This document shows positions 22,009 to 25,609 of a stretch of DNA of 25,856 bases, piece by piece. The translations under genes and the position numbers were made by a program. The notes under the pieces were generated by a model. The model was given only the letters and a program-made list of their open reading frames with translations, did no database searches and was not told the DNA's origin. Position 1 is the first letter of the stretch, and each line of letters begins with the position of its first letter. The DNA is taken from positions 1 to 25,856 of IMG/VR virus record IMGVR_UViG_3300045141_000320; one strand, written 5' to 3'. The DNA comes from a virus.

Positions 22009-23466
22009 ATGCTTACCATCAATACCCAAATCCCGACCGCCGCCCGTGGCCAAGTGCGTTCGTTGGTCAAGGCGCATGCTCTCTGGCCCGCCTTCCTAGT
22101 TGAAAAGGGCCTGATCAGCGCCAGCGCACGCAATGCCGATTTGATCGAGTTTGCCTTGAGGCATCCTAGCCTCGCCGCGCAGATCGAAGCCGTTCTAAAC
22201 CTCTCCCCTGTCGACGCGCCGACCGATACTCCCGAAACCATGATGGAAGATGAAACGATGATCGAACAACCCGCAACCGAAACCGGCTTTGCACTGGACA
22301 GCGTATTGGCAGGCGTCGACCAATTTTTGGCGCCGCTCGTTCGAAGCGAACTAAGCAAGGCCCTTGGGCCTGTCATCGCTGCAGCCAACAAGGGCCCTGT
22401 GGAAATTGAGCGCATTGTTGAGGTCGAGCGTGTGGTGGAAGTTGCTCCGGGCGAGGCCCCGCGCGTTGTGCTGCCGAAAGCGCGCCGCGACAAAAAGACT
22501 ACCTTCCGAAGCCTGTTTCCGTCGCGCGCAAAGGGCGCATGGCTGGACGCGCCGATAACGCTTTGGTCGGGCGTCGCGTCGCCTGCGGCCGATCCTTTTT
22601 ACGTAGTGGACAACCATCAAATGGCGCTCCTGATCACAGCTATGGAACGCGGCACCAACGTATGGCTTGCGGGCCCTGCGGGCACGGGCAAATCGACCAT
22701 GCCGGAACAGGCCGCTGCGGCCTTGGGGAGGCCCTTCGTAAAAATCGGCATGACGCGGCAGACCGAAGTTGAAAGCCTTGTCGGCGGCATGGGCCTGCGC
22801 AACGGCGCCACCGTTTGGGAAGATGGCGCGCTTGTTAAGGCGATGCGGCAGCCGGGCATGATTGTGTTGATCGATGAGCTAACCATCGCGCCTGCAGGCG
22901 TGCAGGCGATCATTCAGCTTGTCGCCGACGATCACCGATCGCTCACCTTGCCTACGGGCGAGGTCGTCAAGGCAGCCGACGGCGTTGTGTTCGTCGTCGC
23001 CGACAACACCACCGGCGCAGGCGATGAAGGTGGATTGTACGCGGGCACCAACATCTCCAATGCTGCGCTTGTGACACGGTTCAAGCGCATGATCATTGTC
23101 GACTACCTGTCACCGCAAAAAGAAGCTGAGGCCCTCGCCAACCATACCGCGTGCCCGTTGCCTGCGGCGAGGCATCTTGCGGACTTCGTGGCGCAGGCGC
23201 GTCGCCTTCCTGCGCTGCAGGGCGTCGTCGTTTCACTGCGGCAAATGGTTGGTTTCGTGCAGTGCGTGCAGGACGGTTTTAGCGCCAAGGACGCCTTCAC
23301 GACTGCGATTTCGTCGCGCATGCCCGCGACCGAAAAGGCCGCGATTGAGGCCCTCGCCATCCTGTCATGGGCCGAAGCCTTCGAAGCCTTGGTTCACAAC
23401 AAGCCCGTGCCCGCGCAGCCCTCCGATAGCGCGGCCGCGCACGCCTTCGCCGATACGCAATTCTGA
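22009..23466 (+). CDS. MoxR/CobS-like AAA+ ATPase
   Basis: A 485-aa protein with AGGA ten bases before the ATG. Residues 1-170 are a helical N-terminal region with an acidic linker and a Val/Glu-rich segment (EIERIVEVERVVEV at 132-145). The AAA+ core follows: Walker A GPAGTGKST at 222-230, the pre-Walker B strand region with GGMGLRNG, Walker B MIVLIDEL at 284-291 (D289, E290), sensor 1 VVADN with N333, and an arginine-finger-like ALVTRFKR at 354-361. This architecture belongs to the MoxR/CobS group, whose members pair with VWA proteins to remodel clients or, in aerobic cobalt chelatase, to drive metal insertion with CobT and CobN. The VWA partner is encoded next door. No CobN is present in the window, so a generic chaperone role is at least as likely as chelation. 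Confidence 0.85.
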   Translation: MLTINTQIPTAARGQVRSLVKAHALWPAFLVEKGLISASARNADLIEFALRHPSLAAQIEAVLNLSPVDAPTDTPETMMEDETMIEQPATETGFALDSVLAGVDQFLAPLVRSELSKALGPVIAAANKGPVEIERIVEVERVVEVAPGEAPRVVLPKARRDKKTTFRSLFPSRAKGAWLDAPITLWSGVASPAADPFYVVDNHQMALLITAMERGTNVWLAGPAGTGKSTMPEQAAAALGRPFVKIGMTRQTEVESLVGGMGLRNGATVWEDGALVKAMRQPGMIVLIDELTIAPAGVQAIIQLVADDHRSLTLPTGEVVKAADGVVFVVADNTTGAGDEGGLYAGTNISNAALVTRFKRMIIVDYLSPQKEAEALANHTACPLPAARHLADFVAQARRLPALQGVVVSLRQMVGFVQCVQDGFSAKDAFTTAISSRMPATEKAAIEALAILSWAEAFEALVHNKPVPAQPSDSAAAHAFADTQF

Positions 23467-23485
23467 TTTGAAAGGGGTATGAACC

Positions 23486-23602
23486 ATGAAACGCAAACCC
23501 AAACCCTCGAAGCCTGCGGAAAGCATCGCTTCGATACTCAAGGCTAACCCTGATTTCATTGAAAGGCTTATCGATTTGGTGACGGAGGGGTTGACAAAGT
23601 AA
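23486..23602 (+). CDS. 38-aa basic ORF between the AAA+ and VWA genes
   Basis: A small frame, MKRKPKPSKPAESIASILKA followed by NPDFIERLIDLVTEGLTK, with AAAGGGG eight bases upstream of the ATG. The N-terminus is basic and Pro-rich, and the second half is a likely amphipathic helix. It starts 19 nt after the AAA+ stop and ends just before a hairpin. A 22-codon frame from the ATG at 23479 uses the same ribosome site but is less convincing. It may be a peptide partner or regulator of the AAA+/VWA pair. The composition resembles a coding sequence, yet at this length chance cannot be excluded. Confidence 0.5.
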   Translation: MKRKPKPSKPAESIASILKANPDFIERLIDLVTEGLTK

Positions 23603-23617
23603 CCCTTCGGGTCCAAA

Positions 23618-23645
23618 AAAGGGCTCCGCTTCGGCGGAGCCCTTT
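23618..23645. terminator. Strong UUCG-loop hairpin between AAA+ and VWA genes
   Basis: A perfect 12-bp stem (23618-23629 with 23634-23645, aaagggctccgc) closes a TTCG tetraloop. In the plus direction only three T residues end the stem, so termination may be partial. On the minus strand the stem is followed by TTTTTTGG, a full intrinsic terminator, which would stop antisense transcription entering the AAA+ gene. It may set different doses of the ATPase and VWA proteins. Confidence 0.7.
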
Positions 23646-23671
23646 CGCGTTTCAACAAGGAAAAATGAACA

Positions 23672-25609
23672 ATGTCATACACTTACCCTGAAGCTTTATC
23701 CGCCCTCGAAAGCATCGCGAACGACTACATCAAGGCGATGCGCCCTCGCGATAGCGCGCGCGTCGTTCTGGCCTGCGACGCGGCAGCCGTCACCGCGTCA
23801 GTGACATGGGATCAGTACGGTATTCACGTGAACATGCCCGTGCGGCCTGCGTCATCGATCATGACGCAGACTGAATTTGAAGATTGGGTGGCGTTCATGC
23901 TGCACGAGCTAGGCCATCCGACACATACCGATCAACGCGCATGGATCGACGCGGTGAAATCGGGCGTCGCCCGCATGGTCAACGCCCTTGAAGATGTGCG
24001 CATGGAAAAGGCCCTTATTGCTTCGAGCATCGTGCCCAATGCCCGCGCCGTGCTTTCGTCGCTGGTATCGCGCAAGGTAGTCGAGGCCCGCGCCAATGGC
24101 TGGAAACCCAATGCGCGCAAGGAATTTGCATGGACGGTTTGCGTGCTTGGGCGCGCAGCCAACGGTTACGCCCTCGACACCTCCGATACCGATTGGATCG
24201 CGTCGCAGATCAAGCCGGGTTCAACGGTTGGAACCGTGCTGGCATGGGCGTTGCCCGCGCTGGCGGCCTGCACGTCGACCACCGATTGCGTCACGTTGGC
24301 GAAGCGCATCATGCAGGCCCTTTCGGCAGCCGCCACCGGTGAGGCCGGTGAGGCCGGTGAGGCTGGCGAGGCTGGCGAGGCTGGCGAGGCTGGCGAGGCT
24401 GGCGAGGCTGGCGAGGCTGGCGAGGCTGGCGAGGCCGGTGAGGCCGGTGAGGCCGGTGAGGCTGGCGAGGCTGACGAGGCCGGTGAGGCCGGTGAGGCCG
24501 GTGAGGCTGGCGAGGCTGGCGAGGCTGGCGAGGCTGGCGAAGGCAAAGGCGAGGCCAAGGGCGAGGCTGGCGAGGCCAAGGGCGAGGCTGGCGAGGCCAA
24601 GGGCGAGGCTGGCGAGGATGAGGGCGCTGGCGAGGCTGGCGAGGATGAACGCACTGGCGAGGCTCCTGAGGGCAAGGGCGGCACAGGCCACGGCGACGGC
24701 ACTACTGACGCCGACGAAACGCCCATCACGTCCGACGATGATCTGGCCGACCATGATCTGGCGCCGACCAACACCGACACCATTGCTTCGGACGCCGACC
24801 GCTTCGCGGAAAGGGCCGTCATTGGTATCCTGCGCGACCGCGTCATCAACTCGAAACCGCGTTCCGGCGGCGACGCGGTGAAGCGTCTCGGCGTCAACGG
24901 CAAGCGCCTGCAGGAGGCCGCATCGCGCGCGTCGCGCCAGCGCGCATTGCTGGCGCGCGCATTGCGCGCCAACGAAACCGACGAACGCGAGGGTGGGCGC
25001 AAGGCCGGGCGCCTTGATCGCGGTGCCCTCTCGCGTGCTGCGGCAGGCGCGCCGAACGTCTTTTCGCGCCGCGATATGTGCGAAGGTTTCGACACCGACG
25101 TTTGCGTATTGTTGGACGCGTCCGGCAGCATGGGCGGCAGCAATATGATCATGGCGCTGGAAACCGGCCTTGTGGTTTCGCAGGCGGCGGCGAGCGTTGG
25201 CGCATCGTGCACCACCGAAATATTCAACTCCCAAGGCTACCTCCGCGCTGGCGCCCTCGCCACCAAGCGCACGCCTGATCCGGCTGAATTTGGCGCCCTC
25301 CAGAACGCGGCCAATGGTGGAACGCCCTTGTCCGCCCATATGGCGCGCGTCGCGGTGACGCAGGCAAAGCGCGCGCCGCACAAGCGTCGCGTTTTGTTCG
25401 TCGTCACCGACGGCGGCTGTGACTACGGCATGCGCACGGTAAAGCGCATGGCGGAGTATCTGGAAAAATCATGCGGCACCGTGCTGGCGCACGTTTCAAT
25501 CGGAACGCCCTTGAGCGGGGCCTTTAAGGCCGAAGTTCGCGTTCCACATGGCCAAGGCCTCGCCGAAATCGGACTGGAGCATTTCGTGAAGGTGCTGCAA
25601 GCGTTGTAG
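23672..25609 (+). CDS. CobT-like VWA protein with HELGH motif and GEA repeat
   Basis: A 645-aa protein with AAGGA ten bases before the ATG. The N-terminal domain (1-220) contains HELGH at 78-82 and, 24 residues on, LEDVRME at 106-112, the spacing and pattern of metallopeptidase-like domains found in front of VWA domains in MoxR-linked proteins. Residues 223-288 are 22 Gly-Glu-Ala units, continuing as Lys/Glu/Asp variants to about 335, an extreme form of the acidic middle region of CobT. The C-terminal VWA domain has a complete MIDAS: D482, S484 and S486 in DASGSM, T551 and D580 in VTDGG. It is likely the partner of the AAA+ protein upstream. Whether the HELGH site binds zinc or cleaves anything is unknown; CobT itself is not known as a protease. 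Confidence 0.85.
24338..24535. repeat. 22-unit, 9-bp tandem repeat encoding Gly-Glu-Ala
   Basis: The unit is GGY GAG GCY. Two synonymous forms, ggtgaggcc and ggcgaggct, are arranged in blocks, and the block pattern (several ggtgaggcc, then a run of ggcgaggct) recurs, so the array grew both by single units and by larger duplications. One unit boundary carries a Gly to Asp change (gctgacgag). Imperfect units carry on to about 24670. Confidence 0.92.

Follow-up and report, generated by a model that had tools for sequence, protein, structure and literature searches.

What does a phage do with a MoxR/CobS-type AAA+ ATPase and a VWA protein reminiscent of CobT? The two genes that raise this question lie on a virus contig of 25.9 kb from a soil phage (IMG/VR record IMGVR_UViG_3300045141_000320; 25,856 nucleotides, hereafter the window). 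The pair is a genuine two-gene module, and the reading that we prefer, at a probability of roughly 0.6, is that it constitutes a machine which remodels proteins at the expense of ATP and has a proteolytic arm. It would be accessory to the phage, act in takeover or genome replication, and serve neither to chelate cobalt nor as a factor that virion assembly requires.

The ATPase (485 aa) is encoded at 22009-23466 and the VWA protein (645 aa) at 23672-25609, both on the plus strand, as are all features below unless stated otherwise, and both precisely where an earlier note on this DNA had placed them. The ATPase is defined by matches to AAA_5 (3.7e-20) and phrog_249 (PHROG 249, 4e-49) and by an alignment of nine sequences, and the VWA protein by its open reading frame (ORF), family matches and alignment. 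The latter consists of three parts, namely an N-domain (residues 1-219), an acidic (GEA)n linker, and the VWA domain itself, which contains a metal ion-dependent adhesion site (MIDAS). All four coding parts tested are under purifying selection, with pN of ~0.1-0.3 against pS of ~0.6-0.8.

Two-gene module and its predicted gluzincin domain

Relatives of the pair were collected by an ATPase-based search of viral contigs, and another set was obtained via the terminase; a search of viral contigs by the VWA protein alone returned no match, the chosen peptides being too variable. Where the ATPase is flanked on both sides by 3.5 kb or more (29 IMG/VR loci), a gene for a VWA protein with the HExxH motif lies near it in 27 cases, in both gene orders. 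The two genes thus form a module, as had been proposed from the window.

The N-domain (23672-24328) is a predicted gluzincin, an assignment based on an alignment of 38 phage sequences, an AlphaFold model with a predicted local distance difference test (pLDDT) score of 93, and Foldseek comparisons. It carries the putative zinc-binding and catalytic motif HELGH (residues 78-82; 23903-23917) and, further on, the motif NALED (residues 104-108; 23981-23995), whose E107 is presumed to be the third zinc ligand. P56, H78, E79, H82, N104, E107, and D108 are invariant in all 38 phage N-domains, some of which are only 15-20% identical to that of the window. In the model, a helix and a three-stranded sheet are accompanied by the HExxH helix and the NxxED helix. 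A Foldseek comparison with viral proteins recovers this domain from further phage VWA or “CobT” proteins (best E 3e-10), that of Haloarcula virus HHTV-2 among them. The metallopeptidase-like character ascribed earlier to this domain is therefore well founded in its invariant zinc-site residues and confident model.

The VWA domain contains the MIDAS sequence DASGS (residues 482-486; 25115-25129). D482, S484, and S486 are invariant in 35 full-length phage proteins and D580 is nearly so, which bears out the claim of a complete MIDAS. Between the two domains runs the acidic linker (24341-24644), recognised by repeat analysis and alignment as a 9-bp tandem repeat of ~32 copies; its length varies widely among relatives. 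Matches of the VWA protein to collagen, tail fibres, and SclB were discarded as artefacts of this repeat, which also accounts for spurious collagen and tail-fibre annotations.

The core motifs described earlier in the ATPase proved real and are conserved in the nine aligned sequences. Walker A, GPAGTGKS (residues 222-229, G222-S229; 22672-22695), is mostly invariant; D289 and E290 of Walker B, IVLIDE (residues 285-290; 22861-22878), are invariant, and so are the sensor-1 asparagine N333 (23005-23007) and R357 (23077-23079), a candidate arginine finger whose role we presume from what is generally known of the AAA+ family. As regards action against host defence, which the earlier note had raised as an option, a PADLOC scan gave no informative match, the ATPase matches being weak P-loop ones only. 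Related ATPases were also noted in the Listeria phage LP-032 (L013) and the Mycobacterium phage MsGreen (L014), where they are followed by a different partner of ~275-303 aa; these partners, with neither HExxH nor the D-x-S-x-S motif of the MIDAS, possibly represent a third partner type.

How well is the zinc site kept among phages? HExxH is present in 61 of 63 viral VWA proteins, the exceptions being L060, which is truncated by the start of its contig, and L095, which has SEVAH. The named phages with HExxH include SSU5, S-PM2, P-SSM2, S-B64, Mae-Yong1326-1, Kvothe, CRP-810, and RHEph10.

Several observations weigh against the preferred reading. The site is lost in the Stenotrophomonas phage ANB28 (L172, DREVST), the Pseudomonas phage nickie (L174, DSEISK), and L095, so the domain can persist without catalysis, and ICP2 (L171) and MJW (L012) have HExxH without the third ligand. 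Foldseek against the PDB gave no significant fold match for the N-domain, although its top ranks, in favour of the assignment, are mostly zincins (the M48-like peptidase 3c37, M61, MATCAP, the SprT-type DNA–protein crosslink protease 6mdw, selecase, and jannalysin). When the N-domain was compared with the PDB by sequence profile, no relevant match emerged, and the VWA part is poor in the full-length AlphaFold model. The notion that every phage copy retains the zinc site is excluded by ANB28, nickie, and L095; the predicted catalytic site, as judged from the motifs, is kept strongly but not absolutely among phage proteins.

These losses bear on the alternative that survives best, in which the zinc site would be no more than a structural element or a vestige and the machine would only pull or unfold, like CobST and RavA-ViaA. 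It gains from ANB28, nickie, and L095, which keep the architecture without the site, and from the absence of the site from all sampled cellular CobT proteins. However, the catalytic and ligand residues, including the presumed general base E79, are invariant in 38 proteins at 15-20% identity, and since a structural zinc site needs no E79, this invariance argues against a purely non-proteolytic remodeller, which we regard as unlikely.

Bacterial genomes, too, encode VWA proteins in which the HExxH and ED motifs are intact (L137:4522-6183, L138:4555-6780, L140:3520-5442, and L141:3634-5463), three of these four genomes being without CobN. In L137, a RadC-like gene adjoins the VWA gene, which therefore probably belongs to a mobile element.

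Setting of the pair among virion and replication genes

In group 2.2 jumbo phages, a MoxR AAA+ gene stands beside one for a VWA protein that has a metallopeptidase domain fused to its N-terminus, a pair for which a role in virion assembly, as a chaperone and a protease processing structural proteins, has been put forward (Iyer et al. 2021, PMC7824862). Going by its description, this pair has the same architecture as that of the window. As read from the sequences and the model, the window likewise combines core ATPase motifs, a neighbouring VWA protein with MIDAS, and a fused N-terminal domain with intact zinc-site motifs. In contrast to the jumbo-phage pair, that of the window belongs to a type found in a phage of ~41 kb, and it has an additional N-terminal module on the ATPase, the (GEA)n linker, and a conserved intergenic hairpin.

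A function in virion assembly, which the earlier note had mentioned as one possibility, could thus be transferred to the window, the more so as the pair adjoins the terminase there. However, the pair is transcribed divergently from the virion operon; as had been noted before, matches to the terminase large subunit (TerL), portal, and major capsid protein (MCP) lie on the opposite strand. Moreover, relatives with 87-90% identity in MCP, 80-89% in TerL, and 75-78% in portal are devoid of the pair, with no AAA_5 gene on their contigs of 26-42 kb, so that its presence varies independently of the virion genes. Relatives at a greater distance (terminase 65-70%) do have the pair, in the other orientation and with an intact HExxH, and many other phages carry it amid replication genes (primase, polymerase, helicase, and clamp). 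The absence from relatives with the same virion operon suggests that the pair is accessory and not required for the virion, and together with the replication-gene setting elsewhere, it makes an assembly role quite unlikely.

What, then, replaces the pair where it is missing? In some pair-less relatives, the slot between terminase and primase is occupied by a DUF932 gene (L203:4310-5789, L213:3667-5254, and L215:4134-5611), while L205 and L212 have there the ATPase N-terminal module alone. DUF932 was found in none of six pair-carrying contigs of 40-43 kb, and the two were never seen together in the sampled contigs (by a rough count, 0 overlaps against ~4 expected). As there is a single shared slot, this exclusion shows replacement and is not proof of equivalent function.

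The N-terminal module covers residues 1-79 of the ATPase (22009-22245), as delimited by alignment. Phages without the pair retain these first ~79 residues as a free protein of ~100-118 aa, which suggests that the module works independently in recruitment or regulation and that the pair is accessory.

Within the virion operon of the window, the ORF at 15017-15991 (minus strand) has a C-terminus matching the Acb2/Tad1 hairpin domain (PF24729, 7.6e-7); of this ORF, several relatives conserve no more than the last ~85 residues.

Relation to the cobaltochelatase CobNST

The VWA-AAA architecture of the pair is shared with the cobaltochelatase subunits, and a chelatase function has been proposed in print. 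According to this proposal, viral cobST would hijack host CobN, forming with it an aerobic cobaltochelatase that raises the cobalamin supply, and the peptidase annotation was called a mistake (Liu et al. 2021, PMC8651126). The viral “cobST” genes (PHROG 249, 1576/5298; PMC8651126), including those of Microcystis phage Mae-Yong1326-1 (PMC9503304) and T4-like cyanophages, are homologous to the window pair, and among the named relatives, Mae-Yong1326-1 is nearest, with 38% over the AAA domain and 33% over part of the N-domain. A literature search on the timing of cyanophage cobS found nothing among the papers searched.

The relationship to the cellular proteins is real as well. Cellular CobS and CobT comprise, as does the phage pair, an AAA+ protein and an N-domain, acidic linker, and VWA domain. 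The phage and cellular N-domains are homologous, since hhalign joins their profiles over 194 columns (92%) with a pairwise E of 7e-7, and the SSU5 homologue of the VWA protein matches both CobT Pfam domains (PF06213 at 130 bits). CobS is also the top-scoring named NCBIfam family for the ATPase. However, the scores lie far below those of true equivalogs: the CobS equivalog TIGR01650 gives the ATPase 55.1 bits against a cut-off of 558.55, and the CobT equivalog TIGR01651 gives the VWA protein 22.4 bits against 759.05. The CobS-like and CobT-like labels of the earlier note thus stand as statements of likeness, but a remote one.

The CobN partner is missing from the window, as had been pointed out, and CobN (PF02514) was found in none of the ten phage records scanned (the window, eight IMG/VR relatives including G003, and Mae-Yong1326-1), although the host may have one. 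A check for cobN or cobalamin genes elsewhere in the phage genome, which had been called for, was possible in the relative G003, which, having 41,206 bp and a terminal repeat of 127 bp, appears complete. Its right half encodes a primase-helicase, DNA polymerase A, an SNF2 helicase, a nuclease, and a lysozyme; no cobalamin or ribonucleotide reductase gene was recognisable among its larger ORFs, which argues against chelation.

Further differences concern the two proteins themselves. HExxH occurs at the site in none of the CobT N-domains of 49 bacterial genomes (which have, e.g., DSMAL), in contrast to the window protein, where the intact zinc site is under selection; the third-ligand glutamate is usually retained in these CobT proteins. 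The Walker A of the window continues as GPAGTGKST, whereas cellular CobS has the signature G[YFLT]HGTGKS[TS]. When the ATPase tree is rooted on NorQ, the cellular CobS proteins fall into one clade (100/100) within the phage ATPases, and the window ATPase belongs to a separate phage clade that diverges outside both CobS and most of the other phage sequences. A single clade of all phage ATPases was rejected (p-AU 0.016, from the approximately unbiased test with seven long-branch rows left out) in a comparison chosen only after inspection of an initial tree. From the genome scan, the NorQ/NorD-like loci (L020-L028) were set aside as having no HExxH partner and forming a separate clade.

The chelatase reading of the viral “cobST” papers is therefore unsupported by the zinc-site, CobN, and phylogeny tests made here; a cobaltochelatase role for the phage pair is most likely to be rejected, and of the alternatives weighed, we find it the most improbable.

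As to the direction of change, the simplest reading of the sequences would be an ancestor with an active zinc site that was lost in CobT, the opposite direction being less likely. A broader proposal, which we put forward tentatively and hold to be possible rather than probable, is that CobS and CobT arose from a mobile phage-type ATP-dependent metalloprotease whose zinc site was lost on recruitment to chelation. Phage “cobS/cobT” would then be the protease system, and in the clade of the window, it would swap with the DUF932 system via the shared N-terminal recruiting module.

Intergenic region and proposed mode of action

The ATPase gene does precede the VWA gene, as the earlier note had it, but not directly: the gap of 205 nt holds a 38-codon ORF and a terminator-like hairpin. 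The ORF (MKRKPKPSKPAESIASILKANPDFIERLIDLVTEGLTK; 23486-23602) is absent from most relatives, and its coding status is doubtful. The hairpin (23619-23644) has an 11-bp stem and a TTCG loop. Hairpins of differing sequence are found in the equivalent gaps of all nine relatives (L003-L008, L029, L031, and L032), most of them followed by a T-run, and the folding z-scores range from -2.8 to -7.6 in the nine sequences folded. In most, the hairpin is preceded by a GGGTTGAC..TCAACCC-like palindrome with a TTGACA-like box; in its strict form, the palindrome pattern stands once between the two genes in each of G003, G005, and G007, whereas the window has it upstream of the ATPase. The two genes are thus not simply fused in an operon, and the hairpin may set the ratio of the two proteins. 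As it ends ~27 nt before the VWA start in the window, readthrough setting an excess of ATPase over the VWA protein is plausible.

The preferred reading, a remodelling machine with a proteolytic arm, can be outlined as follows. By analogy with other systems, the MoxR-type AAA+ protein would form a motor ring that supplies force, while its N-terminal module would probably recruit the partner or the target. The VWA protein could serve as an adaptor, with the VWA/MIDAS domain either docking on the ring or gripping the client, the long acidic flexible linker providing reach, and the gluzincin-like N-domain cutting, or at least binding, the client delivered to it. The same remodelling logic, a MoxR ATPase with a MIDAS VWA protein, is known from NorQ/CbbQ-NorD and RavA-ViaA; in contrast to the window, the NorD-like partners in L022, L024, and L028 have no HExxH domain, and NorQ forms a clade separate from the window ATPase. 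The replication-gene neighbours in many phages and the divergent orientation here suggest that the pair acts early or in the middle of infection, the presumed client being a protein of the host or of replication. The earlier suggestion that the pair remodels a phage or host protein is plausible.

As regards composition, the zinc-site comparison favours the MoxR-vWA/metallopeptidase description (PMC7824862) over that of viral cobST (PMC8651126), and the window pair joins a kind already noted both in jumbo phages and in “viral cobST” surveys. Viral surveys class cobS/cobT as auxiliary metabolic genes and infer manipulation of vitamin B12, a label carried by hundreds of phage relatives. Should the majority of these pairs be ATP-dependent metalloproteases or remodellers, the B12 inference would fail for hundreds of records, and a function common among phages would have been overlooked. 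Whether the zinc site is intact or lost offers a simple sequence test for which reading fits, and pair-less relatives with the same virion genes and DUF932 in the slot provide a natural experiment on the function of the system. For many phage “cobS/cobT” genes, a system of protease and remodelling function may be the better reading, and CobST may have arisen from it.

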